From a bacterium (lineage in GTDB: Bacteria > Krumholzibacteriota > Krumholzibacteriia > JACNKJ01): a stretch of DNA of 35,798 nt. Of the stretch, positions 7,185 through 22,963 are shown piece after piece (position 1 is the stretch's first letter; every line of letters starts with the position of its first letter). The notes under the pieces were generated by a model that was given only the letters and a program-made list of their open reading frames with translations, was not told the DNA's origin and ran no database searches. Both the position numbers and the translations under genes were made by a program. The stretch covers positions 1-35,798 of the forward strand of contig VGXI01000009.1 in NCBI GenBank assembly GCA_016873475.1, written 5' to 3'.

Positions 7185-10100
7185 ATGAAGAGGATCCTCT
7201 CTCTGACCCTTAGCCTCGCGCTGGTGCTGACGGCGGCGAGTGCCGGGTTCGCGCGGGATGTCGCCAAGGACACCCGTCTGAACTTCGAGCATCTCGGCTC
7301 CCCGCTGGAGCCCATCTCGACCACGGGCATGCGGGCAGACACGTTCTTCCTGTTTGCTGGGTCGGGCCCGGGTTCCTACGGTTCCGCGGGCACCAACGCG
7401 CGTGGCTTCACCTTCGACAACGCCGGCGGTCCGGCCACGGCTGGGTGGACGACCGTGGACGTGACGGCGCAGCCGGATGCCTACTGGCACCTGCAGGCGC
7501 TGACCCTGAGCAACGGCCACGCCACGGACTTCCAGTCGGCGGCCGGCCTGCCTCCGACGGGCGGCCCGGGCGGCGATACCGTGAACGACTACGCCTGGTG
7601 GTGCGGCCGTGCGAACGTCTGCGGCTGGATCAACCCCACCGGTTACGGCGGCGGCTGGAACCAGTGGCTCGAGCTCACGGTCCCGGTGGCGGCGACTGCC
7701 GGCAGCCTCGAGTTCGACTACGTCGGCGACTTCGAGGGCGATGTCTACGACTTCTTCACGCTGTACTCGAAGACCGGCGCCAACGATCCCGTCGAGCTGC
7801 TGAGCAACGCGGTCAGCGGCGAGCAGATCGTGACCCACTACGGGCCGATCGCCTTCGGGAACATCGACAAGCTGATCTTCGCCTTCGTGTCCGACGGCGG
7901 CTGGTCCGACGAGGACGGTTCCTTCATCACCGACATCGGTGCCGTGTGGATCGACAACATCGAGATCGACTACACCGGTGCGACGGACGTCGCGTGGAAC
8001 TTCGAGAGCGGTAACGAGGCGGACTTCCCCGCGCTCGATGCCACCTTCCCCGCGGGTGCCGGCGCCTACGGCGCGCTGTATGCGAACCTGTTCTCCGAGG
8101 ACATCTGCATCACGAACTCGACCTACGCCTGGGCGTTCTTCGATCTGAACACGACGAACCCCGAGTACCCGATCCCGGTGACTCCCTACGGTCCGCCGTA
8201 CTTCGAGAACGGCATCCAGAGCCCGATGCTGGAGAAGGCGCACATGCTGGGCGACCCCGTCGGCATGAGCTTCAACGATGCCCACGGGTCGAACTCCCAG
8301 TTCGTGTTCAGCATCCTGGTCTACTGGGACATGCCGCTCAACACGCTGGTGTTCCTCCAGTCCGACGTGGCGGCGCGCACCGTCGAGGTGCCCTGCCTCG
8401 GCCAGTGGGCGAACAACAACATTGTGTACTACGGCGGCGGCATCACGGCGTGGCTGACCCATACCCGGGACTACACGCTGCAGCTGGCGACTTCGGCGGG
8501 GGCCGGCAACACCATCGATGGTGCCGTTCTCCGTCTGAAGACCCTCGACATGTGTCCCTTCTGGTGCAACGTCTACGGCGATGGTACCGGTCACACGCCC
8601 GCGCCCTACATGGATGTCATTTCCGCGCGCTTGATCAACACCTCGTCGATCGCCTGGGACATCGATGTCTTCCATCGCTTCCAGGACAACTTCCCCGAAG
8701 TGGGCGGCACGGTCCGGATCGACAGCGCCATCGACGTCCAGCCGGTCAGCGGCACGACCCTGGTCATCGGCGACTCCACGAAGATCAAGCTGAACATGGA
8801 CGGCAACGGCGGCATCAAGCAGGACCTCACGAGTGTTCCTGGCGAGACCCGTCCGAGCCTGTACATGCACTTCCGCGTGGCGGCCGGCCCGCACGCGGGG
8901 TCCACGAGCGCGTTGATGAGCGACCCGGATGCCACCGACGGCATCTACTCGCCTCGCATCGGCACGACCGTCGTGAACGGCGAGACCTGGAACGTCGCGG
9001 TTGCTGATACCGCGCGCTACCAGGGCACCATCAGCCCGGGCTCGTATGCCTTCGACCTCGCGGAGGACTACTTCGTGGCGGGCGATGTCATCCAGCTGTA
9101 CTACAAGGGCACCGCGGTCGACAACACGATGCAGACGCGTCCGGCTTGGGCCGAGAGCAGCAACCCCGATCTGCGTTCGTACTACATCGTGCGCTGCCTG
9201 CCGACGGCGGGTGCGACGATGCTGCTGTGCGACGACGATTTCGGGAATCAGCCCTGGTGGGACGAGGCGTTCCTGTACAACGGCTACGCCGGTTACGACG
9301 TCTACGCGACCCAGGCGCCGAGCTCCGGTCTGCACAACGGTCTCGGTGGCCGTGCGGAGGTCGGGGACATCGACCAGTACGACGTGATCGTGTGGGACAG
9401 CGGCGATCTGCCCAGCTACACGATCCAGAACGCGCTGCCCGACGACCTGACCTTCGACGACGTGCTGCTGGACGACTGGCTCAGGAACAGCGCCAAGAAC
9501 ACCTGCCTCTGGGTGATGGGCAACGAAGTGGCCAACGACCTCGATAACGAGGCGAGCTTCCTGAACATCAACCTGGGCGCGACGCACATCCTGGACGGTA
9601 GCCACTACAACGACGTGACCGGCATCCTGGTGCCGCAGGTGAAGTCGGTGCATCCGGCCCTGCTGATCGGCGGCCAGCAGCCCACCTTCCGGGTGGACGC
9701 CGGCTGTCCGTTCGTGCGCAACCTGGACCTCGTCGAGAAGAACGACGCCATGGCCGTCGATGCGATGGCCTGGAGCGTCGTCACGGGTGCTCCCACCTCG
9801 CGTGCGGGCATCTACAACACGGACCCGGATGGCAACGGCTTGATCACGAGCCCGGGCGGCTACACCAACCGGACGCTGTTCAACCCGTTCGGCTACTACG
9901 AGGTCTGGGACGAGGGCTTCGGCATTCCGCAGGGCTACGACTACGCGCGCCGTATGGTCGGCGACGTGCTGACGAACCTCTGTGGCTTCGAAGCCAACTC
10001 CACCCCGAACAACGCGGGTGAGGTGCCGGCGAGCTTCGCGCTCAAGGGCAACTTCCCCAACCCCTTCAACCCCAAGACCACGATTCGCTTCGCCCTCGCT

Positions 10101-10307
10101 GCCAGCGAGCACGTGCACCTGAACGTGTACGATCTCGGCGGCCGCCTGGTGAAGACTCTGGTTGACGAGCCGATGACGGCCGCCAACCACGAGGTGGTTT
10201 GGGACGGCACCGACAGCGGCGGCGCCAAGGTCGCCAGCGGCGTGTACTTCTACAAGCTCGTCGCGGGTGATTTCAACGCCACCGAGAAGATGGTGATGCT
10301 CAAGTAG
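7185..10307 (+). CDS. Secreted protein A with C-terminal sorting-type (FlgD-Ig-like) domain
   Basis: This 1,040-residue exported protein starts with a clear signal peptide (about 1-23, cleavage after G-F-A). Residues ~45-265 form an aromatic, Gly/Asp-rich beta module (repeated W-W, D-Y-V/T, D-N-I-E-I-D-Y) that looks like a jelly-roll. About 678-870 is a flavodoxin/GATase-like segment (A-T-M-L-L-C-D-D-D, V-I-V-W-D-S-G-D-L) with no catalytic set that I can identify. The last ~90 residues are an FlgD-Ig/type A sorting-type domain (N-F-P-N-P-F-N-P-K-T-T-I-R-F-A-L to a final V-M-L-K). Such domains direct export and surface attachment where a type IX system exists. Codons show more CGT/GGT than in neighbours, hinting at high expression (visual impression). 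It has its own promoter, leader and terminator, so it is probably a single-gene transcript. Molecular function unknown. Confidence 0.9.
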   Translation: MKRILSLTLSLALVLTAASAGFARDVAKDTRLNFEHLGSPLEPISTTGMRADTFFLFAGSGPGSYGSAGTNARGFTFDNAGGPATAGWTTVDVTAQPDAYWHLQALTLSNGHATDFQSAAGLPPTGGPGGDTVNDYAWWCGRANVCGWINPTGYGGGWNQWLELTVPVAATAGSLEFDYVGDFEGDVYDFFTLYSKTGANDPVELLSNAVSGEQIVTHYGPIAFGNIDKLIFAFVSDGGWSDEDGSFITDIGAVWIDNIEIDYTGATDVAWNFESGNEADFPALDATFPAGAGAYGALYANLFSEDICITNSTYAWAFFDLNTTNPEYPIPVTPYGPPYFENGIQSPMLEKAHMLGDPVGMSFNDAHGSNSQFVFSILVYWDMPLNTLVFLQSDVAARTVEVPCLGQWANNNIVYYGGGITAWLTHTRDYTLQLATSAGAGNTIDGAVLRLKTLDMCPFWCNVYGDGTGHTPAPYMDVISARLINTSSIAWDIDVFHRFQDNFPEVGGTVRIDSAIDVQPVSGTTLVIGDSTKIKLNMDGNGGIKQDLTSVPGETRPSLYMHFRVAAGPHAGSTSALMSDPDATDGIYSPRIGTTVVNGETWNVAVADTARYQGTISPGSYAFDLAEDYFVAGDVIQLYYKGTAVDNTMQTRPAWAESSNPDLRSYYIVRCLPTAGATMLLCDDDFGNQPWWDEAFLYNGYAGYDVYATQAPSSGLHNGLGGRAEVGDIDQYDVIVWDSGDLPSYTIQNALPDDLTFDDVLLDDWLRNSAKNTCLWVMGNEVANDLDNEASFLNINLGATHILDGSHYNDVTGILVPQVKSVHPALLIGGQQPTFRVDAGCPFVRNLDLVEKNDAMAVDAMAWSVVTGAPTSRAGIYNTDPDGNGLITSPGGYTNRTLFNPFGYYEVWDEGFGIPQGYDYARRMVGDVLTNLCGFEANSTPNNAGEVPASFALKGNFPNPFNPKTTIRFALAASEHVHLNVYDLGGRLVKTLVDEPMTAANHEVVWDGTDSGGAKVASGVYFYKLVAGDFNATEKMVMLK

Positions 10308-10308
10308 A

Positions 10309-10375
10309 GCGCTCGCCTGCATCCTCTCGCGCGCGAACAACGCGCGCGACCCGGATGCAAGCTCGCTTGCGAGGC
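10309..10375 (+). repeat. Structured intergenic element, copy 1
   Basis: This 67-base element directly follows the stop of A. It folds into a two-tier stem-loop. The outer arms are GCCTGCATCC (10315-10324) and GGATGCAAGC (10353-10362), with one mismatch. The inner arms are TCGCGCGCG (10327-10335) and CGCGCGCGA (10341-10349), closing an AACAA loop. It is an imperfect direct repeat of 10411-10476, and the base changes between copies preserve pairing. It lies just upstream of the terminator. Confidence 0.75.
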
Positions 10376-10380
10376 AGAGA

Positions 10381-10407
10381 GGGGGAGCCGCAAGGCTCCC
10401 CCTTTTT
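10381..10407 (+). terminator. Rho-independent terminator of paralogue A
   Basis: A perfect 9-bp stem, GGGGGAGCC (10381-10389) and GGCTCCCCC (10394-10402), closes a GCAA tetraloop and is followed by five T residues. It is the only textbook intrinsic terminator in the window. It separates the A transcript from A'. Confidence 0.92.
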
Positions 10408-10410
10408 CTT

Positions 10411-10476
10411 GCGCTCGCGCGCGCCCTCTTGCGCTCGAAACAACGAGCGCGACCCGGGGCGCGCTCGCTTGCGGCC
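10411..10476 (+). repeat. Structured intergenic element, copy 2
   Basis: This is a second copy of the 10309-10375 element, just after the terminator. The outer arms are GCGCGCCC (10419-10426)/GGGCGCGC (10457-10464). The inner arms are TTGCGCTCG (10429-10437)/CGAGCGCGA (10444-10452) around an AAACAA loop. Relative to copy 1, two outer pairs (A-T to G-C, T-A to C-G) and one inner pair (G-C to T-A) have changed on both sides, and one pair became G-U. The shared GACCCGG and GCTCGCTTGCG segments show common descent. Confidence 0.72.
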
Positions 10477-10513
10477 ATGCCGCAACGGCTTGGGCGGCAT
10501 CGGATTGCCGGGT

Positions 10514-10542
10514 TTGCCCAGGCGGCGGCGATGGGCTATGCT
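10514..10542 (+). promoter_or_regulatory. Sigma70-like promoter for paralogue A'
   Basis: TTGCCC (10514-10519), a 17-base spacer and TATGCT (10537-10542) give a reasonable sigma70-type promoter. It lies downstream of the terminator and structured repeat and ~60 bases before the A' start. It is weaker by eye than the promoter of A. Confidence 0.45.
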
Positions 10543-10602
10543 TAGCTGGCTTACCCCTGTAGCGCTCCCGCGGCGGCAGCCGCAGCCGATCGGGAGATGA
10601 AG

Positions 10603-13600
10603 ATGCGCCGTTCGTCGCTCGCGTTCGTCACGCTGTTTGCGATCGGGTTCGCCGCGCCGGGTCTGGGCCGGGAGCCGGGGCCCCAGGAGCGGATCTTCTT
10701 CACGAGCGAGCCGCCTCCGGTCGAGTCCGCGCCCGCCGACCTGCGCGCCGACACGCTCTTCCTCTTCGCCGCTTCGGGGCCGGGCGCCTACGGGACGCCG
10801 GGCACCAACGCGCGCGGCTTCTCGTTCGACGACGGCGCCGGCGGCCCCGCCGCGGCGGGCTGGACGCCGGTCGACGTCACGGCCCAGACGGACACCTACT
10901 GGCACCTCCAGGATCTCTACCTCAGCCACGGCCACGGGACGGACTTCGCCGCCGCCGACGACTTCGCCGACGGCGGCCCGACGGCCGGCAACGACTACGC
11001 CTGGTGGTGCGGCCGCTCGGGGGCCTGCGGCTGGGCGCATCCGATCGGATACGGGGACGGCTGGAACCAGTGGCTGGTCCTCGCGGTGCCGGAGGCGGCC
11101 ACCGGCGGCACGCTGGAGTTCGACTACGTCGCCGACTTCGAGGGGGACGTCTACGACTACTTCACGCTCTACGCGCAGAGCGCGGAGGGCGAGCTGAGCG
11201 AGCTGCTCGACAACCATGTCTCGGGCGAGCAGGATGTTCGCCACTACGGCCCCCTCGCCTTCGGCGAGGTCGCGGCCTTGATCTTCGCCTTCGTCTCCGA
11301 CGGGGCGTGGTCGGACGAGGACGGCTCCTACGTCTCCGATGTCGGCGCGGTCTGGCTCGACAACTTCGAGCTGGACTACACGGGCGCCCCGGACGTGGCC
11401 TGGGACTTCGAGAGCGGCGTCGAGTCCGATTTCCCGGCCCTGACGGCGAGCTGGCCGGCGGGCGCCGGCGCCTACGGCGCTCTCTACCGCAGCCTGTTCT
11501 CCGAAGACCAGTGCATCGTCAACTCGAGCTACGCCTGGGCTTTCTTCGATCTGGGCACGACGAACCCCGAGTATCCGATTCCCGTGATCCCCTACGGGCC
11601 GCCCTACGTGGACAACGGGATCGTCAGCCCGGTGCTGGACCGGGCGCACTCCCTCGGCGATCCGGTCGGGGAGCCCATGGACGATGTCTGGCACGGGCCC
11701 AGCCATCTCCTCGTGCGCTGCATGACCTACTTCGACCTGCCGCTGGAGGCGCTGATCTTCTGCGAAGTCGAGGTGCAGGCTGCCGTCAGCGAGTTTCCCT
11801 GTCTAGGCGAGTGGGAGTACGGTGGCGGCGTGTACTACGGCGGCGGTGTGGTCGCCTGGCTGAGTTGGACCCGCGACCGCACGCTGCAGCTGTTGAGTTC
11901 GGCGGGTCCGCACAACATCGTCGGCGCGCGCGTCAGGTATCGCGTGATGGACATGTGTCCCTTCTGGTGCAACGATTACGGCGATGGTACCGGTCACACG
12001 CCGGCGCCCTACTTCGACACGATCAGCGTGATGGTTATCAACGGCTCTCCGGCGAACTGGAGCGTGGACAGCTGGTGGCGCTTCCAGGACAACTTCCCGG
12101 AGGCGAACGGCAAGGTCCGCATCGACAGCGCCATCGACGTCCAGCCGTACAGCGGCACGACGTTGGTCATCGGCGACTCCACGCTGATCAAGCTGAACAT
12201 GAGCGGATACGGCGGCATCCGGGGCGACTACCTGAGCGTTCCGGGCCAGGTGCGTCCCAGCCTGTACCTGCACTCGCGCGTGGTCGCGGGCCCGAATGTG
12301 GGCAGCACGAGCCCGGCGATGGGCGATCCCGATGCCAGCGATGGCATCTACTCGCCGCGCATCGGCACCGCTGTCGTCAATGGCGAGACGTGGAACGTCG
12401 CGGTTGCCGACACCGCGCGCTACCAGGGCGCGATCAGTCCCCACTGGTATGCCTTCGACTTCGCCGAGGACTTCTTCATGCCGGGCGACATCATCCAGCA
12501 CTACTACAAGGGGATTGCTGTCGATAACACGGTGCAGACGCGTCCGGGATCGGCCGAGAGCAGCAACCCCGAACTCCGCAACTACTACGTCGTGCGCTGC
12601 CTGCCGACGGCGGGCGCGACCCTGCTCTTCGTCGAGGATGGCCGTCTGGTCAGCGGCTACTACCAGGGCGAACCGACTGCGGACCAGCGAATCGCCGGCT
12701 ACTGGCAGGAGGCCTTCCGCTACAACGGCTACTCCGGCTACGACATCTACACGACCCAGGCCCCCAGTTCGGGATTGCACAATGGTCTGGGCGGTCGCGC
12801 CGAGATCGGCGACATCGATCAGTACGAGGTGATCGTCTGGGACAGCGGCGATCTGCCCTCGTTCACGATCCAGAACGCGCTGCCCGACGATCTGGCCTTC
12901 GACGACGTGCTCCTGGACGACTGGCTCAGGAACAGCGCCCACAACACCTGCCTCTGGGTGATGGGCACCGAGGTGGCCAACGATCTCGATGACGAGCCGA
13001 GCTTCCTGAACGTGACGCTGGGCGCGACGCACATCCTGGACGGTAGCCACTACAACGACGTGACCGGCATCCTGGCGCCGCAGGTGAAGTCGGTGCATCC
13101 GGCCCTTTCGATCGGCGGCCAGCAGCCCAGCTTCCGGGTGGACGCCGGCTGTCCGTTCCCGCGCAACCTGGACCTCGTCGAGAAGAACGACGCGCTGGCT
13201 CAGGACGCGATGGCCTGGAGCGTCACCACCGGTGTCCCGAGCGCGCGGGCGGGCATCTACAACCTGGACCCGGACGGCGACGGCGAGATCACGAGCCCGG
13301 GCGGCTTCACGAACCGGACGCTGTTCAACCCGTTCAGCTACTACCAGGTTCGGGACGAGGGCTTCGGCGTTCCCCAGGGCTACGACTACGCGCGCCGTCT
13401 GGTCGGCGACGTGCTGTCGAGCCTCTGCGGCTTCGCGCCCAACGGCCAACCAGATGGTGCCGACCTCGCGCCTGCGCGCACGGCCCTGGCCGGCGCCTAT
13501 CCCAATCCCTTCAACCCGTCGACGGCGATCCGCTTCGCGCTCGCCCAGCCGGAACGCGTTCACCTGGAGGTCTTCGACCTTGGCGGCCGGCGCGTGCGGA

Positions 13601-13752
13601 CCCTGGTCGACGGGCCGCTGCCGGCGGCGCAGCACGAAGCGATCTGGGACGGCGCCGACGCAGTCGGCCACCGACTGCCGAGCGGGGTCTACTTCGCGCG
13701 GCTCGTGGCGGGGGACTACCGGGCCAGCGCGAAGCTGGTGCTGCTCAAGTGA
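10603..13752 (+). CDS. Secreted protein A', tandem paralogue of A
   Basis: This 1,049-residue exported protein is colinear with A over its whole length: signal peptide (about 1-22), jelly-roll-like N-terminal module, D-M-C-P-F-W-C-N middle block, flavodoxin/GATase-like segment from ~672, and a C-terminal FlgD-Ig/sorting-type domain (Y-P-N-P-F-N-P-S-T-A-I-R-F-A-L to L-V-L-L-K). ATG 10603 is preferred to the in-frame ATG at 10597 because GGGAG (10592-10596) is 6 bases from the former and touches the latter. The main difference from A is ~14 extra residues in the GATase-like segment (around L-V-S-G-Y-Y-Q-G-E-P-T-A-D-Q). Similarity to A is uneven at DNA level, highest in the C-terminal two thirds. 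It has its own promoter. Function unknown; probably a duplicated surface or secreted protein. Confidence 0.9.
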   Translation: MRRSSLAFVTLFAIGFAAPGLGREPGPQERIFFTSEPPPVESAPADLRADTLFLFAASGPGAYGTPGTNARGFSFDDGAGGPAAAGWTPVDVTAQTDTYWHLQDLYLSHGHGTDFAAADDFADGGPTAGNDYAWWCGRSGACGWAHPIGYGDGWNQWLVLAVPEAATGGTLEFDYVADFEGDVYDYFTLYAQSAEGELSELLDNHVSGEQDVRHYGPLAFGEVAALIFAFVSDGAWSDEDGSYVSDVGAVWLDNFELDYTGAPDVAWDFESGVESDFPALTASWPAGAGAYGALYRSLFSEDQCIVNSSYAWAFFDLGTTNPEYPIPVIPYGPPYVDNGIVSPVLDRAHSLGDPVGEPMDDVWHGPSHLLVRCMTYFDLPLEALIFCEVEVQAAVSEFPCLGEWEYGGGVYYGGGVVAWLSWTRDRTLQLLSSAGPHNIVGARVRYRVMDMCPFWCNDYGDGTGHTPAPYFDTISVMVINGSPANWSVDSWWRFQDNFPEANGKVRIDSAIDVQPYSGTTLVIGDSTLIKLNMSGYGGIRGDYLSVPGQVRPSLYLHSRVVAGPNVGSTSPAMGDPDASDGIYSPRIGTAVVNGETWNVAVADTARYQGAISPHWYAFDFAEDFFMPGDIIQHYYKGIAVDNTVQTRPGSAESSNPELRNYYVVRCLPTAGATLLFVEDGRLVSGYYQGEPTADQRIAGYWQEAFRYNGYSGYDIYTTQAPSSGLHNGLGGRAEIGDIDQYEVIVWDSGDLPSFTIQNALPDDLAFDDVLLDDWLRNSAHNTCLWVMGTEVANDLDDEPSFLNVTLGATHILDGSHYNDVTGILAPQVKSVHPALSIGGQQPSFRVDAGCPFPRNLDLVEKNDALAQDAMAWSVTTGVPSARAGIYNLDPDGDGEITSPGGFTNRTLFNPFSYYQVRDEGFGVPQGYDYARRLVGDVLSSLCGFAPNGQPDGADLAPARTALAGAYPNPFNPSTAIRFALAQPERVHLEVFDLGGRRVRTLVDGPLPAAQHEAIWDGADAVGHRLPSGVYFARLVAGDYRASAKLVLLK

Positions 13753-13764
13753 TTCGCTCCCCTC

Positions 13765-13776
13765 GCGGCTAGCCGC
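13765..13776 (+). repeat. Perfect 12-base palindrome after A'
   Basis: GCGGCTAGCCGC is a perfect self-complementary sequence 12 bases after the A' stop, flanked by CCTC and GAGG that can extend the pairing. There is no T-run. It may be a transcript-end structure or an operator. Confidence 0.4.
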
Positions 13777-13785
13777 CCGGGAGGT

Positions 13786-13818
13786 CTGCCCGCGGTCGCA
13801 ACGACGACCGCGGCGCAG
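13786..13818 (+). repeat. Third two-tier hairpin, downstream of A'
   Basis: Inner arms CCGCGGTCG (13790-13798) and CGACCGCGG (13805-13813) pair perfectly over nine bases around a CAACGA loop. Outer arms CTGC (13786-13789) and GCAG (13815-13818) flank them. Geometry and CAA-containing loop resemble the two elements after A, but the arm sequence is unrelated, so it is a structural analogue rather than a proven copy. The remaining gap (13819-13942) is GC-rich with weaker self-complementarity and no gene. Confidence 0.6.
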
Positions 13819-13942
13819 GTGCCCCGGGGCGCCGTTTCGCGCCGGGAGCCACCCCCCGTATCGCCCCCGACGCCCACCCGGCACGCTGCCCGACGCCCCC
13901 GGGTCGGGGCGGCGACCCGCCGGCGGGTTCCGGGCTTCGGGG

Positions 13943-13972: not shown

Positions 13973-14045
13973 GCACACGCTTTACCCCACTCAGACCTGC
14001 CCCTGCCCTGAGTCTCCACCTGCCGTGTGGAAGGAGTGGACCATC

Positions 14046-16151
14046 ATGCTGGGGATCGACCGCCGCCTGCGGAGCGCTCTGCTCGTCGCCGCGGGCGTCG
14101 CGCTCGCCGCCGGTCTCGGCTGCCGTCGCGAACTGCCGGAGCTCTTCGACCGCAACAAGGCTCCGGAGACCTATGTGACCGCCGCACCGGTGGAGTCCCT
14201 CTTCGACGGCTTCCGCGTCAACCTCAGCTGGTACGGCCTCGACCCGGACGGGGAGATCGCCTACTTCCTCTGGGCTTGGACCGACTCTTCGCGCGCCTAC
14301 TTCTCGGCCTGGAATCCCGAGAATCGCGCCGAGGACCGCATCCTGCGCGAGGGCCTCTTCGACGCCACCCACCTGACGACGCGCAACGACTCGCTCTTCA
14401 CCATCCAGGCCAACGACAACGGCGGCACCTCGCGCGACGTGACGTTCAACATCACCGCCGTCGACGACCAGGGCAAGCGCGACCCGGTGCCCGCGCGCCT
14501 GTACTTCTTCGGCAGCGTCGACAGCCGCCCGCAGGTCATCTGGCTGCAGGAGCCGCCGGACACGCTCGACGCCGGCGAGTCCTTCGCCTGCCGCTTCACG
14601 GCCACGACGAAGAACGGCTACATACTGGGTTACAAGTGGGCCTCCGGCGCCGACCCCGCCTTCGAGCCGCGCAACAAGAGCGGCGACCAGATCTGGACCC
14701 ACCAGATCGAGGACGACTGTGCGAACGTGCCGGCCGAGTATTGCGGCTACCAGGATTCGACGGCGATCACGCTCAGCTTCACCAACGACATCGGTGGCGC
14801 CGACGCCGACATGGTCCAGTTCTACAAGTTCGGCACCTTCCTCATCAAGGCGAGGGCCGTCGACCTGGCCGGGGTCGAGTCGGAGCTGAACACGACCGTC
14901 GGCAGCCTGAGGGGAGCGGTCGCGCCCATCCTCAACCGGGACCCGGACACGCGCCTGCGGCCCTGGGACGGCGCCGAGGACTACCCGGTCTTCGTCCGCT
15001 ACAAGCAGACGAGCGATTCACCCTACACGAGCTACGGCCTCAACGCCGTGCTCGTCGACACGCTGCCGGACGGCAGCCCCGCCCCGCCCGGCTTCCACTA
15101 CGCCGTGCGCGAGACCGTGCCCTGGGGCGAGGCGACCTGGATCCGCTTCTTCTGGCAGGGCTGGGATTACGACGACCCGATCATCGCCGCCGATCCCGAG
15201 GACATCGTCGGCGCGGAACAGGACACGATCAAGACCCGCTTCCAGATGAGCTACGCCTGGACGAAGCTGAATCTGACGAACGGCTTCCCCTTCACCGCCA
15301 ACTCGAACGGGCGCTATCCCGCGGGCGGTCGGCTCGGCTATCCCGAGCAGCTCGAGTTCGCGGCCTTCGGCGAAGCGGGGAGCGACTTCGAGATGAACAT
15401 CCTGCCCGTGGACTACACGGTCTACGGCTATGCCCAGGACTACTTCGAGCGCGTCGACGGCACGCCGGTCTCCGTCACCTTCACCGGCGGCTACTCCTCG
15501 TTCGTCGACAGCATCCTGGTCGGCGCCGTGGGCTCCACCACGGCCGTCAATCTCACGACGCTGCCGGCGGGCGACCCAGTCCGCATCGCGCTGCATCCTT
15601 CGCCGATCCCCTTCACGGGGGAGCTGGTCACCTGGGATCCCGTCACGCGCACGTTCAGGCTCGAGCCGAGCGCGGTGAGTGGCACGTTCCCGAACATCAC
15701 GAACGAGTTCAACCTGACGCTGACCTTCTTCGGTCACGACGATCCTCGCAACGGCCAGTACGCCCAGCTCGGCCGCGGGCGCTGGGATCTGATCGACCCG
15801 GACTACCCGTTCAGCAGTTTCCAGTTCGTCCCCGATGTCTTCGAGCCGGCGAACCAGACGACCGTCCAGTTCTGGAAGGACGTCTTCCCGGGCAACGCGC
15901 TCCCGCCCGCGGAGGGCAGCTTCACGGTCCAGCTCCGCATCCGCGAGACCTTCTGGTTCGAGGCGCCGCCGACGCCGGCCTACCTCGGCCCGAAGACCTT
16001 CCAGGCGGAGTTCTGCAACACGATTCCCTCCCAGGTCGTCACCGAGCTGATCGAGGAATCGGCGCAGCGCCAGATCGGTCTGACCAACATCGGCCGGGTC
16101 AGCCGCCCGCTGCGCGCCCAGATCGACATCCAGTACGTGCCCTACCTCTAG
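14046..16151 (+). CDS. Lipoprotein B with DPDG-type beta module
   Basis: This 701-residue protein was assigned from ATG 14046, preceded by AAGGAGT (14031-14037) at 8 bases. The frame is open upstream, but that would start inside the -10 element. The N terminus has two Arg-rich turns, a hydrophobic run and a Cys at 26 (G-L-G-C), a slightly atypical lipobox. The first module has N-L-S-W-Y-G-L-D-P-D-G-E-I, like the opening module of C and C' (H-F-Y-W-H-G-Y-D-P-D-G). Further beta-rich stretches follow, with F-F-W-Q-G-W-D-Y-D-D-P near residue 370. No enzyme motif was recognised and there is no C-terminal sorting domain. Likely exported and anchored by lipid in the envelope; role unknown. Confidence 0.85.
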   Translation: MLGIDRRLRSALLVAAGVALAAGLGCRRELPELFDRNKAPETYVTAAPVESLFDGFRVNLSWYGLDPDGEIAYFLWAWTDSSRAYFSAWNPENRAEDRILREGLFDATHLTTRNDSLFTIQANDNGGTSRDVTFNITAVDDQGKRDPVPARLYFFGSVDSRPQVIWLQEPPDTLDAGESFACRFTATTKNGYILGYKWASGADPAFEPRNKSGDQIWTHQIEDDCANVPAEYCGYQDSTAITLSFTNDIGGADADMVQFYKFGTFLIKARAVDLAGVESELNTTVGSLRGAVAPILNRDPDTRLRPWDGAEDYPVFVRYKQTSDSPYTSYGLNAVLVDTLPDGSPAPPGFHYAVRETVPWGEATWIRFFWQGWDYDDPIIAADPEDIVGAEQDTIKTRFQMSYAWTKLNLTNGFPFTANSNGRYPAGGRLGYPEQLEFAAFGEAGSDFEMNILPVDYTVYGYAQDYFERVDGTPVSVTFTGGYSSFVDSILVGAVGSTTAVNLTTLPAGDPVRIALHPSPIPFTGELVTWDPVTRTFRLEPSAVSGTFPNITNEFNLTLTFFGHDDPRNGQYAQLGRGRWDLIDPDYPFSSFQFVPDVFEPANQTTVQFWKDVFPGNALPPAEGSFTVQLRIRETFWFEAPPTPAYLGPKTFQAEFCNTIPSQVVTELIEESAQRQIGLTNIGRVSRPLRAQIDIQYVPYL

Positions 16152-16204
16152 CCCCAGGGGAGGGCGACCGGCCCCTGCGGGGGTCGCAACGCGGGAAGCG
16201 AGCC

Positions 16205-18682
16205 ATGATCGGAAACAGGATCTTCGCCGTCTTCGCAGCCGCCGCGGTCGTGATCGCTGGGGTGGTGGGCTGCGACAATCCGGAGACGACCGAGAAGCCG
16301 AATCGGCCGCCGGAGGTCACGCTCTCGAGCGGTCCCGCCAACGGCGCCGGCAACGTCAACTACAAGGTGCACTTCTACTGGCACGGCTACGACCCGGACG
16401 GCCGCGTCGAGAACTTCGAGTACCTCGTCACGAATGACGAGGTGACCGGTTCCCTGATCATCGACGAGGACATCTACGAGCGGCTCGCCGCACTCGATGC
16501 CGCCTTCCCTGAGGTCGACTACCGCTGGCGCGCGATCGAGGTGCACGACACGATCCTCTCCGTGACCGCCGATTCGATCCCGGATCCCGGCGACGACGAC
16601 GACGCGATCTACTTCTACGGCGACGACCGCTTCCTCTTCCGCGCGCACCACACCTTCTTCATCCGGGCCGTCGACGAGGACGGCGCCATCTCGGAGCGGC
16701 CGGCGCACCGCACCTTCACGGCGACGACCATCGCGCCCGAGGTGAAGATCAACCATCCCTCGGACATCGGGGGCATCGGCGGCTACGATGACCTGCCCCC
16801 GGACGTTTTCTTCCGCTGGACCGGCAACGATTCGGTGGGGGACGGCACGGTGATCGAGCCGGACTCGACCCGCTTCGCCCTGCTCAAGCGCGGGGACCTC
16901 GGCCTGGACACCCAGTTCAGCGGCCGCCTGCTCGACTTCCCCGATTCGCTCTGGAGCGTCTGGCGCGGCTGGGACCAGGTCGACTCGCTCGACGAGAACA
17001 TCGGCGGCAGGCGCGCCCTCATCACGGGCCTGACCCCCTCCTCGCAGGGCGGCGGCGCCGGCCGCTATCTCTTCTTCGTGCAGGCCAAGGACGAGGCCGG
17101 CGCCATCTCCAGCCACTACGAGGACGGCAAGAACCTGCGCAAGTTGCGCATCGTCTCCAGCCTGGCGCCGCGGGTGACGATCAGCGAGCGCACCCTCGGC
17201 GTGCGGGTGAGCAGCATCAGCCAGAGCTACGACTACACGATCGCCGAGAACCAGCCGCTGCAGCTCAGCTGGTCGGCCTCGGCATCCGAGTACGGCAGCG
17301 AGATCACCGGCTACCGCTACGGCTGGGACATCCTCGACTCGGCCAACGACGAGGAGTGGAGCAGCTGGGCGCTGACCAACACGGCCACCCAAGCTGTCTT
17401 CGTCTCCGGCAGTCACAGCTTCTGGCTCGAAGCGCGCGACTACAGCGGCACGACGACCCGCATCGTCTACCGCTTCGTCATCGTGCCCTTCACGATGGAG
17501 CGCGAGCTGCTCTTCATCGACGACTACACCAACGTGCCCACGGAAAACCCGCTCCAGGGCTGGCCACTGGGCCAGCCCTACACCTGGGGTACCTTCCCGC
17601 ACAACAACGATCAGCAGAAGGCCTTCTGGGACACCATCCTCCCCGAGTACTCGGGCTACGATCCCGTCGTCGACTTCTTCCGGGTGACCACCGTCAACCG
17701 CGTCCCGCCCTTCGAGACGGTGGCCGTCTACAAGCGTCTGCTCTGGGAGGTGAAGGAGGTCCAGCCGACGGAGTCGGGCCTCGGTCGCATCTCGCGCTTC
17801 GTGGACGTCTTCCGGGTGAGCACGGTTCCCTTCGACTTCCTGTCGGCCTTCCTGGATCGCGGCGGGCAGCTCCTGCTCTGCGGGGGCAACCCCGTTCTCG
17901 CCATGCTGCCGACGACGGGCGACATGGGCAACGAGGACTACGAGCGCCGGATGCCGATGGCCTTCCTGAAGCACCTCGGCTACTCGCAGGGCTCGTCCAG
18001 CGAGTCGCAGGCCGCGGTCGGCCGCTTCCTGCCCTTCAAGCACTTCGGCCTCGATGCCGTGGTGAAGGGGACCGACCAGGACCCGCGTTCCTTCGACTGG
18101 GCCGGACCCGACTGGAAGACGAACCGCCAGTTCTGGGGCCTCTACGGCGCCGGCTACCCGGGCAATGAGCTCGCGCAGTTCCCCAACACCGTGGGCTGGA
18201 CGCCGGGCGACACCCTGCGCTTCCTCCCCCAGGTCTACCAGTGGTTCAACGCGGCGGGCCAGTTCTTCAACAGCTCCGACCCGTCCGCCGTGAATTGCAC
18301 GGGAGAGGTGTCGCGCGCCTTCGGCCTCAGCTCGGTCGAGATCTACAACTGGGACTTCTTCCGCGTCCAGTTCGAACCGCCCCTCAACTACCGGACGAGC
18401 AAGTACATCCCCCTGCTCACCTACGTGTCGGCCGACCCGGAGACGCGCTGGGGCGCGACGCCCAGCCCGGACATGTGCTATCTGACTCCCGGCGGCGAGC
18501 ACCACGATGAGGCGGGCTACGCGCTGACGCCGCCTGGCCAACACGCGATCGCGGTGGTCGGACTGCAGAACCCCGCGTCGCCGAGCGTGCTGATCGGTTT
18601 TCCGCCCTACTACCTGGCGCCGGACGAGGCCCAGGGTTTGATCGACCACATCCTCATCGACATGTTCGGGATGACCAAGTGA
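16205..18682 (+). CDS. Lipoprotein C with Ig-like modules and GATase-like domain
   Basis: This 825-residue protein starts at ATG 16205, 53 bases after B. A hydrophobic signal ends at Cys 23 (G-V-V-G-C). Residues ~30-180 contain a beta module with Y-W-H-G-Y-D-P-D-G-R-V. Middle Ig/FN3-like segments include F-F-V-Q-A-K-D-E-A-G-A and the repeated S-E-I-T-G-Y-R-Y-G-W-D-I. From about residue 437 a flavodoxin/GATase-like domain begins with L-L-F-I-D-D-Y and continues with F-L-D-R-G-G-Q-L-L-L-C-G-G-N. No catalytic Cys-His pair could be assigned. It is a close full-length paralogue of C' (20495). The much longer open frame from 14027 is an artefact of GC-rich DNA; the lipoprotein signal fixes the real start. 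Function unknown. Confidence 0.88.
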   Translation: MIGNRIFAVFAAAAVVIAGVVGCDNPETTEKPNRPPEVTLSSGPANGAGNVNYKVHFYWHGYDPDGRVENFEYLVTNDEVTGSLIIDEDIYERLAALDAAFPEVDYRWRAIEVHDTILSVTADSIPDPGDDDDAIYFYGDDRFLFRAHHTFFIRAVDEDGAISERPAHRTFTATTIAPEVKINHPSDIGGIGGYDDLPPDVFFRWTGNDSVGDGTVIEPDSTRFALLKRGDLGLDTQFSGRLLDFPDSLWSVWRGWDQVDSLDENIGGRRALITGLTPSSQGGGAGRYLFFVQAKDEAGAISSHYEDGKNLRKLRIVSSLAPRVTISERTLGVRVSSISQSYDYTIAENQPLQLSWSASASEYGSEITGYRYGWDILDSANDEEWSSWALTNTATQAVFVSGSHSFWLEARDYSGTTTRIVYRFVIVPFTMERELLFIDDYTNVPTENPLQGWPLGQPYTWGTFPHNNDQQKAFWDTILPEYSGYDPVVDFFRVTTVNRVPPFETVAVYKRLLWEVKEVQPTESGLGRISRFVDVFRVSTVPFDFLSAFLDRGGQLLLCGGNPVLAMLPTTGDMGNEDYERRMPMAFLKHLGYSQGSSSESQAAVGRFLPFKHFGLDAVVKGTDQDPRSFDWAGPDWKTNRQFWGLYGAGYPGNELAQFPNTVGWTPGDTLRFLPQVYQWFNAAGQFFNSSDPSAVNCTGEVSRAFGLSSVEIYNWDFFRVQFEPPLNYRTSKYIPLLTYVSADPETRWGATPSPDMCYLTPGGEHHDEAGYALTPPGQHAIAVVGLQNPASPSVLIGFPPYYLAPDEAQGLIDHILIDMFGMTK

Positions 18683-18794: not shown

Positions 18795-20447
18795 TTGAAG
18801 AGACACAGCGCGTGGCACACCCGTGGGGCGATCGGCGTCGCCCTCCTGCTCGTCCTGGCGGGGACGGCCCCGGCCCAGCTCTGCGATCCGGAGGACATGC
18901 CGCCGCCGGCCGCCTTCGCCGACACGCTGCTCCTGCCCGGTCCGGACTGGGAGATGATTCCCTTCTACCCGGTCGGCGGCACCCGCCTGGACGAGGTCGA
19001 CAACGCCCACTACACGGTCGAGACGGAATTCCGCTACTTCGGCATCCCCGCCGAGCCCGACGATACCGAGGAGATGCCGGCGCACTACTTCCTGCCCATC
19101 GGCTGGCGCACGCGCGACATGCTGAGCTTCCGCTGGGCGCGGCCGGCGAGCACGCAGATCGTGCGGGCGCCATCGCTGCGTTCCGGCGGCGTGTGGGTGC
19201 CCGATCCGGCGGGCAGCACGCCGGCGGACACCGTCCTCGTCTCGCCGCGGATGAGCGTCTACGGCCGGTACACGGGCAGCCGCGACCAGGTCTTCACCTT
19301 CGAGTACAGCTTCGGCGCGCGCTTCCAGGGCGATCGCGTGCTCAGCCCGCTCGATCCCGATCTGCAGGCCTGGAGCGCGAGCAGTCACACGGTGGGCGGC
19401 GAGCGCTGGTACGACACGCCCCAGTACTTCACGCCGATCGGCGGCAGCATCACGATCACGAGCATCCTGAGCTGGAAGGAATCCTACGGCCCGGACATCG
19501 AGCACAGCTACGCGCCGGGCGATGCCCGGCTCAGCGGACGCATCAACCTCTACTCCCGCTACACGCGCGTCGCCGCCGACTCGGTGCGGCTGGACGAGAC
19601 GAACATCCACTGCGCCCACGGGCTCTTCCCGGACGCCTGGTATCCGAGCGGCACCTGGAATCCCGAGACCGATCCGTCCGCCTACGGCCTCTACGTCTCC
19701 TTCTCGCCGGGCGTGATGGGCGATCAGTTCCGCTGGCGGCTCGTCGTCGAGGAGATCGACGGTTACCTCGTCTGGCGTGAGCTGGCGGGAAGCGGCGAGG
19801 GGTGGGTGAACATCTGGAAGATCTCCTACAACGAGGAGCGCGACAAGGAGTACTGGTGGTGGATCGGCGGGGAGTTCAGCCCCACGGCGCCGCCGCCTTA
19901 CTACGGCTACGATCCCGCCACCTTGACGCCGGTCTTCGCGGGCAGCGACGAGCTGCTCTTCCTCGACTTCGACGTGCACAACGGCTTCGCCTACAACTAC
20001 GCCATCACCACCTTCGATCGCGGTTTCCGGCCGAACAGCGGCGAGAACAACCACTACCTGCTCAGCAGCACGCCCAAAGAATCGCTGCACACGGTGGCGC
20101 AGAGCCTGGTCTTCAACAAGCCGGCCGACGACAAGCTCGAGCGCAGCGTCTACGCGGTACCCAACCCGCTGCGCTCGGGCAAGAGCGCCTTCGACGACCC
20201 GAACTACCACAACTTCCCGGGCGCCGTGGTGCGCTTCGTGGGGGTCACCGCCCAGACGACCCTCAGGGTCTACTCCCTCGCGGGCGACCTCCTGTTCGAG
20301 GCCGAGAACCGCGATCCGAGCACGTGCAACATCGTCTGGGACACGCGCAACCAGCAGGGCGAGCTGGTGGCGTCGGGGGTCTACCTCTACCGCGCCGAGG
20401 GCGCCGGGGACGACGAGGAGTACGGCCGGTTGGTGATCATCCGCTAG
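18795..20447 (+). CDS. Secreted protein D with C-terminal FlgD-Ig-like domain
   Basis: This 550-residue protein is assigned to TTG 18795, which is 8 bases after GGGAGG (18781-18786) and immediately begins a signal peptide (basic start, then G-V-A-L-L-L-V-L-A-G-T-A-P-A-Q). Starts further upstream would put a long charged segment before the signal. The body is beta-rich and aromatic, including E-I-D-G-Y-L-V-W-R near residue 320. The last ~95 residues look like an FlgD-Ig/sorting-type domain (V-Y-A-V-P-N-P-L-R, L-R-V-Y-S-L-A-G-D-L, I-V-W-D-T-R-N-Q-Q-G, final I-I-R). The N-P-L-R-S-G variant is less canonical than in A and A'. Lies between the C and C' lipoprotein genes. Function unknown. Confidence 0.84.
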   Translation: MKRHSAWHTRGAIGVALLLVLAGTAPAQLCDPEDMPPPAAFADTLLLPGPDWEMIPFYPVGGTRLDEVDNAHYTVETEFRYFGIPAEPDDTEEMPAHYFLPIGWRTRDMLSFRWARPASTQIVRAPSLRSGGVWVPDPAGSTPADTVLVSPRMSVYGRYTGSRDQVFTFEYSFGARFQGDRVLSPLDPDLQAWSASSHTVGGERWYDTPQYFTPIGGSITITSILSWKESYGPDIEHSYAPGDARLSGRINLYSRYTRVAADSVRLDETNIHCAHGLFPDAWYPSGTWNPETDPSAYGLYVSFSPGVMGDQFRWRLVVEEIDGYLVWRELAGSGEGWVNIWKISYNEERDKEYWWWIGGEFSPTAPPPYYGYDPATLTPVFAGSDELLFLDFDVHNGFAYNYAITTFDRGFRPNSGENNHYLLSSTPKESLHTVAQSLVFNKPADDKLERSVYAVPNPLRSGKSAFDDPNYHNFPGAVVRFVGVTAQTTLRVYSLAGDLLFEAENRDPSTCNIVWDTRNQQGELVASGVYLYRAEGAGDDEEYGRLVIIR

Positions 20448-20494
20448 CTTCCGGGGCGCGGCTCGGGGCCCCGGCCGCTGGCCGAGGAGGATCG

Positions 20495-22963
20495 ATGGCG
20501 AGCGTTCGGCGTCGGTGGCGCAGCGTGGAGCCGCTGCTGCTGGCGGTGGCGATCGCCCTGGCCGGCTGCAGCGCCGAGTACGACGACGTCCCGCTCGCGA
20601 ACCGGGCGCCGATCATCCACCTCTCGAGCGGCCCCCTCGAGGGGGAGCCGGACGCCAACTACCGGGTTCACTTCTACTGGAACGGGCACGACCCGGATGG
20701 GCGCGTGGACCGCTACCAGTTCCTGATCACCGACGATGAGATCACCGGGTCACTGCTCATCGACGAGGACATCTACGCACGCCTGGCGGCTCTGGGCTAC
20801 GAGTGGCAGGACGTCTGGGCGCACGACAGCATCTTCTCGGTGACGGCGGACTCGATCCCCGATCCGGCCAGCAACCCCGCGGACTCGATCTACCTCTACG
20901 GCGACCGCTTCCTCTTCCGCGCCCAGCACACCTTCTTCATCCGCGCGGTCGACGAGGCCGGCCTCTGGTCGCGGCTGCCCGAGCACCGCAGCTTCACGGC
21001 GACGAACATCGCGCCCGAGGTCAAGATCGTCTTCCCGCTCGATCTGGGCGGGGTCGGCGGCTACGACGGCCTGCCCCCGGACATCTTCTTCCGCTGGACG
21101 GGCAACGACTCGGTGGGCAACGGCACGGTGATCGAGCCCGATTCGACGCGCTTCGCGCTGCTCCTGCGGGGAGACCTCGGCCTGAACAACCAGCAGAGCG
21201 GCCTGCTCCTCGAATTCCCGCCTGCCCTGTGGAGCCCCTGGCGCCACTGGAACGAGGTCGACAGCCTCAATCCCGCCATCGGCGGCCGCCAGGCGCTCGT
21301 CGAAGACCTGACGCCGGTCTCGCAGGGCGGCAATGCCGGCTACTACCTGTTCTTCGTCCAGGCCAAGGACGAGGCCGGCGCCATCACGAGCCACTTCCAG
21401 GACGGCAAGAACCTGCGCAAGCTGCGCATCGTCGGCAGCCTGCAGCCGCGCCTGGTGATTCGCGAGGCCTCGCTGGGCACCAACGTCTCCAGCCACGACA
21501 TGACCTGGGACTACAGCATCGCCGCCGACCAGCCGCTGAACCTCACCTGGTCGGCGTCGGCGGGTGAGTACGGCAGCGAGATCACCGGCTACCGCTATGG
21601 TTGGGACATCCTCGACGTGAGCAATGACGAGGAGTGGTCGAGCTGGTCGCTCGGCAACACGGCGACCGCGGCGAGCTTCCCCAGCGGCACGCACAGCTTC
21701 ACCCTCGAGGCGCGCGACTACAGCGGGCGGGCGACGCGGATCGTCTACCGCTTCGTCGTGGTCCCCTTCACGATGGACTACGACCTGCTGCTCGTCGACG
21801 ACTACGACAACACGCCCGTTGCCAATCCCTACCAGGGCTGGCCGCTGGGGCCGCCCTTCACCTGGGGCACCTTCCCGCACGACAACGCGCAGCAGCTCGC
21901 GTGGTGGGAGGCGATCCTCGGGGAGTACCCCGATTTCGTGGTCGGGCGCGATTTCTTCCGCGTGACGATCGTCGACCGCGCGCCCTACATCCAGGTGCTG
22001 GCCGCCTACCGGCGCGTGATCTGGGAAGTGCGCGAAGGGGAACCCGGCGCCTCGGGGTTGGCGCGCATCGCGGCGATGATCGACCCCTACACCGTGCAGG
22101 GCGCGGTGCCCTTCGACTACGTCAGCGCCTTCCTCGAGCGCGGCGGACAGCTCCTGCTCTGCGGCGTCTACCCCGTCTTCGCGATGCTGCCCCTGCCGAG
22201 CCAGATGCAGACCGGCAACTACGAGCGCAAGTCGCCGCTCGCCTTCCTCAAGCACCTCGGCTACTCGGGCGGCTCGGTGAACGAATCGACGGCGGCCGTG
22301 CAGCGGTTCCTGCCCTGGCGGCACCTCGGTCTCGACGCGGTGACGAAGGCGGTCGATCCCAATCCGCGCTACTACCCGGGCGCCAACGTGGACCTGCGCA
22401 ACACCCGCACCTTCTGGGGGCTGACCGGGCTAGGCTACGCGGGCGAGGAGCAGGCGGACTATCCGATCAGCACCGGCTGGGTGCCGCCCGACACCCTGCG
22501 CTTCCGCCCCGAGGTCTACGCCTGGTTCGCCGCGGCCGGGCCCATCTTCAACAACCCGGACGACTGGGAGGACCCGAGCGGCGCCAACCACGTCGAGTTC
22601 GGCATCGGCGAAGGCGAGATCTACAACTGGGAGCGTTTCGCGGCGGCCTACGAGCCGCCGCTGGTGCTGCGCAGCGGCCAGTATCGGCGCCTGCTCAACT
22701 ACATCCCCGCCGACTCGACGACGCGCTGGGGCACCGCTCCCAGCGCCAGCCATCCCTTCCTGCGCAGCGACGGCACCCATTACAACGAGGCCCACTACAG
22801 CCTGGGCCCGAATCGGCCGCAGATGAACGGGCTCGTCAGTGTCGTCCACCCCGAGACGCCCAGCGTCGTGCTCGGCTTCACGCCCTACTTCCTCGCCCCG
22901 GCCGACGCCCGCGGTCTCTTCGACCACATCCTGGTCGACATCTTCCACCTGACGAAGCGCTGA
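20495..22963 (+). CDS. Lipoprotein C', paralogue of C
   Basis: This 822-residue protein starts at ATG 20495 after GAGGAGG (20484-20490), with a textbook lipobox L-A-G-C at Cys 25. It is colinear with C along its length: Y-W-N-G-H-D-P-D-G-R-V module, F-F-V-Q-A-K-D-E-A-G-A, S-E-I-T-G-Y-R-Y-G-W-D-I, then a GATase-like domain starting at L-L-L-V-D-D-Y and containing F-L-E-R-G-G-Q-L-L-L-C-G. The C-terminal third diverges more than the middle. The open frame upstream (from 19802) runs over D and is not coding. Its position last in the B-C-D-C' operon suggests duplication with D or another partner. Likely lipid-anchored in the envelope; function unknown. Confidence 0.89.
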   Translation: MASVRRRWRSVEPLLLAVAIALAGCSAEYDDVPLANRAPIIHLSSGPLEGEPDANYRVHFYWNGHDPDGRVDRYQFLITDDEITGSLLIDEDIYARLAALGYEWQDVWAHDSIFSVTADSIPDPASNPADSIYLYGDRFLFRAQHTFFIRAVDEAGLWSRLPEHRSFTATNIAPEVKIVFPLDLGGVGGYDGLPPDIFFRWTGNDSVGNGTVIEPDSTRFALLLRGDLGLNNQQSGLLLEFPPALWSPWRHWNEVDSLNPAIGGRQALVEDLTPVSQGGNAGYYLFFVQAKDEAGAITSHFQDGKNLRKLRIVGSLQPRLVIREASLGTNVSSHDMTWDYSIAADQPLNLTWSASAGEYGSEITGYRYGWDILDVSNDEEWSSWSLGNTATAASFPSGTHSFTLEARDYSGRATRIVYRFVVVPFTMDYDLLLVDDYDNTPVANPYQGWPLGPPFTWGTFPHDNAQQLAWWEAILGEYPDFVVGRDFFRVTIVDRAPYIQVLAAYRRVIWEVREGEPGASGLARIAAMIDPYTVQGAVPFDYVSAFLERGGQLLLCGVYPVFAMLPLPSQMQTGNYERKSPLAFLKHLGYSGGSVNESTAAVQRFLPWRHLGLDAVTKAVDPNPRYYPGANVDLRNTRTFWGLTGLGYAGEEQADYPISTGWVPPDTLRFRPEVYAWFAAAGPIFNNPDDWEDPSGANHVEFGIGEGEIYNWERFAAAYEPPLVLRSGQYRRLLNYIPADSTTRWGTAPSASHPFLRSDGTHYNEAHYSLGPNRPQMNGLVSVVHPETPSVVLGFTPYFLAPADARGLFDHILVDIFHLTKR

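Follow-up and report, generated by a model that had tools for sequence, protein, structure and literature searches.

Copies A and B, the two hairpins on either side of an intrinsic terminator in the window (the whole stretch of 35,798 nucleotides that was analysed), are members of a previously unnamed dispersed palindrome family with about 28 copies in the host genome. The copies share a paired hairpin structure, typically lie just past a stop codon and are associated with one class of genes, those ending in an FlgD-like or sorting domain (here FlgD-tail genes). The AAACAA form of the family is restricted to its own genome, and a sister genus has an analogue. The reading that we prefer, with slightly less than even confidence, is that A and B are lineage-specific REP-like 3'-UTR palindromes, found chiefly behind FlgD-tail genes and acting as stable mRNA 3' hairpins.

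The earlier note had described two copies of about 66 bases around the terminator, each with a two-tier fold and an AACAA or AAACAA loop. This is borne out by their alignment (88% mean column identity), by folding energies of -37.8 kcal/mol for A and -41.8 kcal/mol for B, and by fold z-scores against dinucleotide shuffles of -2.8 and -3.2, respectively. Each copy consists of an outer stem, an asymmetric internal loop (TC / CCC), an inner stem and an A/C-rich loop (Table 1). The paired changes that had been noted between the copies, including the G-U, are present: an inner G-C becomes T-A, a C-G becomes a T-G wobble and outer pairs are altered on both sides, with pairing preserved. The outer stem of A starts 6-7 nt past the stop codon of gene 1. 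The C-terminus of gene 1 matches the FlgD Ig-like C-terminal domain (Pfam FlgD_ig PF13860, 36 bits), and scores 24.2 bits against Por_Secre_tail, under that profile's cut-off. The terminator between the copies has a z of -5.4, and terminators like it are also found 3' of the members C13, C36, C55 and C299. In the third, divergent member of the window the inner stem is identical to that of member C56a. Further along, the window contains large open frames at 14027-18682 and 19802-22963 without a Pfam match at E<=0.001.

Table 1. Positions of the features in the window.
Feature	Position	Strand	Description
Gene 1	7185..10307	+	Open frame, start codon uncertain; protein end ...SGVYFYKLVAGDFNATEKMVMLK*
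Hairpin copy A	10309-10375	+	Outer arms 10315-10324 / 10353-10362; inner arms 10327-10335 / 10341-10349; loop AACAA at 10336-10340; internal loop TC / CCC
Intrinsic terminator	10381-10407	+	GGGGGAGCC-GCAA-GGCTCCCCC-TTTTT
Hairpin copy B	10411-10476	+	Outer arms 10417-10426 / 10456-10464; inner arms 10429-10437 / 10444-10452; loop AAACAA at 10438-10443; 3' of the terminator
Paralogous block	10412..13265	+	79-95% identical to part of contig C31; contains copy B, the promoter region and most of gene 2
Gene 2	10597..13752	+	FlgD Ig-like C-terminal domain; PF13860 28.7 bits
Divergent third member	13767-13837	+	3' of gene 2 stop; apex GGTCG-CAACGA-CGACC

In the host assembly (3.64 Mb) the 17-base core AACAACGNGCGCGACCC is matched exactly at nine places and with one mismatch at none, so that the likeness of A and B is far above chance. 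A covariance model built from these nine matches (R1) found 27 places in the host genome at E<0.05, one pair of which represents the two strands of a single element. With two divergent members taken in by eye through their loop context (window 13767-13837 and C13:5776-5846), the family comes to 28. A scan of approximately 2.04 Mb of the host genome gave no further convincing members beyond the R1 places, and the rates given here come from these 2.04 Mb together with the model searches of the whole genome. In the 28-member alignment (A5), 87.7% of stem cells are paired, compared with 71.6% after shuffling, while slid controls do not exceed 55.5%; double changes occur at 15 of the 19 pairs. The earlier note had named as the outcome that would count against it a lack of further copies, with pairing broken as often as kept; these figures show the opposite. 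The arms, which in some members are as long as about 20-30 bp, vary widely in both length and sequence yet stay complementary, and the apex CG-AAACAA-CG (the loop and its closing pairs) is near-constant, with copy A short of one A and about five members carrying other loops. An unbiased hairpin scan of the 2.04 Mb gave a similar picture: among hexaloops with a stem of 9 bp or more AAACAA was the most frequent, and the family accounted for 12 of 17 two-tier hairpins.

Nearly all of the 28 copies are located 3' of the stop codon of an open frame, and none was recognised within a gene. The preceding gene encodes a C-terminal FlgD-like/sorting domain in 22 cases, with the element in sense in 19 and with its apex inverted in three. 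The other six are found behind non-FlgD genes, including an acetyl-CoA synthetase-like gene (C70), or in ambiguous contexts. The host genome (3.6 Mb) has at least 150 FlgD_ig matches, an estimated 5% of its genes, and on this estimate the excess of FlgD-tail neighbours is large. Approximately 25 of the 28 copies are in sense relative to the assigned upstream gene, the assignment for C1 being ambiguous, and many outer stems start 2-11 nt from the stop codon. Under a strict scan, about half of the sense copies have a terminator-like stem, 10 bp or longer, 6-22 nt on their 3' side; longer-loop terminator-like stems were noted by eye behind C70 and C243a, and no clear terminator follows w2, w3, C31 or C209. 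The elements themselves have no T run directly 3', as an intrinsic terminator (hairpin plus U tract) would. Since it is placed between stop codon and terminator, the hairpin is probably transcribed, yet usually not itself the terminator. The palindrome TTGCCACGTGGCAA has eight occurrences in the 2.04 Mb (e.g. C25:13374, C36:19286 and C299:812), sometimes immediately 3' of the terminator of a family element, and another 3' UTR, TATGGAACGGCCGGTGTCAAGCCGGCTCATGATCTCCGGCCCGGG, is common to two FlgD-tail genes of the host genome (C42:911(-) and C86:10836(+)).

The origin of the compensatory changes bears on whether the family is maintained as RNA or as DNA. Selection on the sense RNA would predict more G·U than A·C mismatches. 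Neutral alignment of the arms gives 19 G·U and 24 A·C in the host family (25 and 24 with fixed columns), and the family of the sister genus has six G·U and 19 A·C. As G·U is not in excess over A·C in either family, selection on the sense RNA is rejected as the sole source of the covariation. Furthermore, C13i and C261 each have an inverted apex followed by the leftover right half of an ordinary element. Template switching between the arms of a palindrome homogenises the arms and inverts the spacers (PMC8604942). Given the strand-symmetric wobbles, the remnant halves and this process, RNA selection is not required for the paired changes between A and B, and arm complementarity may be kept at the DNA level, by template switching without RNA selection. 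The proposal in the earlier note of selection on a folded RNA or a cruciform is supported as far as pairing is conserved; as worded, it is not supported in making RNA selection the cause of the double changes. Maintenance of the arms at the DNA level does not exclude a role of the resulting hairpin as RNA, and some function, or a mechanism linked to gene ends, is still needed to account for the position, the sense orientation and the near-constant apex. Since template switching in DNA can yield compensatory changes, the family is a clear case in which striking changes of this kind in a hairpin are by themselves no proof of RNA function, and its strand-symmetric wobbles and remnant inverted halves render the template-switching idea testable.

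The twin layout around a terminator does not form a functional unit of the family, since most copies are single and placed 5' of the terminator, and B marks the edge of a duplicated block. Contig C31 carries a paralogue of gene 2 (74% amino acid identity over 890 aa) with a homologue of copy B upstream. The similarity between the window and C31 starts at 10412, within the first bases of copy B, so that the left boundary of the duplicated block is the 5' end of B. It follows that B probably belonged to the 3' end of an earlier upstream neighbour of gene 2, and that gene 1, copy A and its terminator were probably joined in front of it; the arrangement of A and B therefore looks like a rearrangement. 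On a wider scale, blastn comparison of 3' ends showed that element-bearing genes usually share a stretch from about -20 to 0 relative to the stop until about +95, comprising element and terminator. In most pairs the coding tails of these genes are no closer to each other than are those of other FlgD genes, and some element-bearing pairs align deeper into the coding region. A tree built from 99 tails is poorly resolved; on it the element label requires 16 changes, where shuffling gives 18.5 and as low a count in 29 of 500 cases, which only argues against one simple series of duplications. Simple duplication of FlgD genes together with their 3' ends was rejected: the similarity mostly ends close to the stop codon, and element-bearing genes are scattered over the tail tree, weak though this tree is.

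In agreement with the earlier note, which knew of no named family of this form, Rfam 15 gave no match at the gathering score in the window, and only sub-threshold matches, none credible at E<=1, at 10280-10500. Like REP and BIME elements, the 28 copies are dispersed, imperfect palindromes in intergenic DNA, with stems that are altered but complementary, and are sometimes paired. They differ in size (a two-tier hairpin of about 66-70 nt, against 20-40 bp), in the part that is constant (the apex rather than the end) and in their placement directly behind the stop codons of one gene class. A cognate RAYT is not necessarily present with every REP family. The Y1 transposase profile PF01797 has no match at E<=0.1 in the host genome (assembly 95.6% complete), while control genomes were positive. 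For REP/BIME with RAYT transposases, roles in mRNA stability, termination and supercoiling have been proposed (PMC2817692, PMC3733652, PMC3116915). A defining feature of REPs is a GTAG or CGTC tag that is left unpaired at one of the ends (PMC3733652); in A5 the ends of the elements read GCGCTCGC... and ...CTCGCTTGC, with no constant tag. On both the tag and the RAYT the family fails as REP proper, and the best reading is to file it under extragenic palindromes, as REP-like but not REP proper.

Two further systems place hairpins at gene ends. The attC sites of integrons have the core consensus GTTRRRY, and the targets of diversity-generating retroelements (DGRs) include a GC-rich hairpin at the 3' end of genes for surface or secreted proteins. 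The present family resembles attC in its imperfect hairpins, which lie at the 3' ends of genes, contain an internal loop and vary in their arms. However, attC has constant outer core sites where this family has a constant apex, the genes here lie outside cassette arrays, and AAACAAC/GTTGTTT misfits GTTRRRY. By inspection of A5, core boxes (GTTRRRY / RYYYAAC) are absent, as the outer arms are variable and the apex GTTGTTT does not fit, and the best match to the integron integrase profile TIGR02249 in the host genome is 71 bits, against a cut-off of 265. An origin from attC was rejected for want of both integrase and core boxes. With a DGR target the family shares its GC-rich hairpin at the 3' end of secreted-protein genes, but PF00078, which would detect the reverse transcriptase of a DGR, group II intron or retron, has no match at E<=0.01 in the host assembly, and this reading was also rejected.

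The covariance-model search of relatives that the earlier note had proposed gave no credible copies outside the host genome, with R1 in 37 relatives, and a second model, R2, run on an 80-genome phylum set, found the AAACAA form in none of the 79 other genomes, three of which are other genera of the same taxonomic family. Inspection of the 3' ends of FlgD-tail genes led to a parallel family in the sister genus G003 (L289-L300 and L238), in which long stop-proximal hairpins have GGCTCCGCTTCGAAGTCGCC as their constant apex, with arms that are different in almost all copies. A pattern search gave 12 places. Of eleven inspected copies plus one relative (L238), six lie in sense behind an FlgD-tail gene, within about 25 nt, and as two of the six had been located via FlgD-tail genes the unbiased count is 4 of 10. 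A model of this type (R3) found 16 places in G003, four in the host genome and two in G002, and nothing in the remaining genomes of the phylum set. The host copies of the GGCTCCGCTTCGAAGTCGCC type include C2:54981-55062 and hairpins adjoining AAACAA members on C19 and C122, and the arm motif GGGGACCTTCCCC is common to both families (L293, C122d). Since it was found after the fact, this parallel family counts for us as a lead and not as a test. That extragenic palindromes should be tied to a single class of secreted proteins, and again so in a sister genus under another apex, is unexpected and points to an unstudied biology of 3' ends, or to their exchange, in a bacterial group that has received little study. 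It is conceivable, though quite doubtful, that each genus of this bacterial family has its own constant apex behind the stops of sorting-tail genes which is read in the mRNA by a dedicated putative factor; if true, tail domain and 3' UTR would form a joint secretion-and-expression module.

According to the reading that we prefer, the hairpin would sit in the mRNA as a stable 3'-terminal structure, blocking 3'-5' decay and possibly aiding pausing or termination. The element would have spread among FlgD-tail genes through copying of 3' ends or recombination at the elements, and template switching from arm to arm as the DNA is synthesised would be largely what holds the arms complementary. Counting against this are the wobble test, in which RNA-level selection left no positive sign, a loop that is more constant than a mere decay barrier would need, the six copies in other or ambiguous contexts, the poor resolution of the FlgD-tail tree and the copies without a clear terminator. 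A loop and closing CG pairs that are near-constant while the stems vary would suit a putative protein that binds AAACAA in the 3' UTR and co-regulates or localises FlgD-tail messages, as would the sense orientation, the tight distance to the stop of one gene class and the different constant apex of the sister genus. We nevertheless consider such a signal rather improbable, as three FlgD-linked copies present UUGUUU in the message, five have other loops and G·U is not in excess over A·C.

It is possible, if unlikely, that the elements are miniature mobile DNA, recognised as a single-stranded hairpin, moved by a putative enzyme and tolerated just past stop codons. Neither a Y1 (RAYT-type) transposase nor a reverse transcriptase is found in the assembly, no target duplication was recognised, and the strong sense orientation and closeness to stop codons do not favour mobility. 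The dispersal of the copies, the AAACAA form confined to one genome, the few copies behind unrelated genes and the conserved asymmetric internal loop and apex between strand-symmetric arms are, however, consistent with it. That the palindromes mark or promote sites at which FlgD-tail genes are exchanged along with their 3' ends is decidedly improbable: the block with gene 2 begins exactly at copy B and element-plus-terminator modules are common to unrelated coding regions, but the case involves one breakpoint, no integron integrase is above the family cut-off and homologous recombination between any repeats could look alike. It seems very improbable that the copies are functionless relics, made complementary by template switching alone and carried along with paralogous gene ends. 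Strand-symmetric mismatches, remnant halves and variable arms would be expected of such relics; a near-constant apex across very different stems, sense orientation close to stop codons and an element label not clearly clustered on the gene tree would not.

In a scan of the contigs of other genomes, several copies of the core were seen only in Nakamurella, and the others look like single chance matches. The palindromes of Nakamurella silvestris (L068, L069, L071, L073, L074 and L075) are REP-like and resemble the present family in having the apex CG-AAACAA-CG on a GC-rich inner stem and long complementary arms that differ between copies, some of them near stop codons. They differ in belonging to another phylum, in their outer arms and in that a link to FlgD was not seen. 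Two viral contigs (L224 and L225) each contain one exact match to the inner core GCGCNCGAAACAACGNGCGC.
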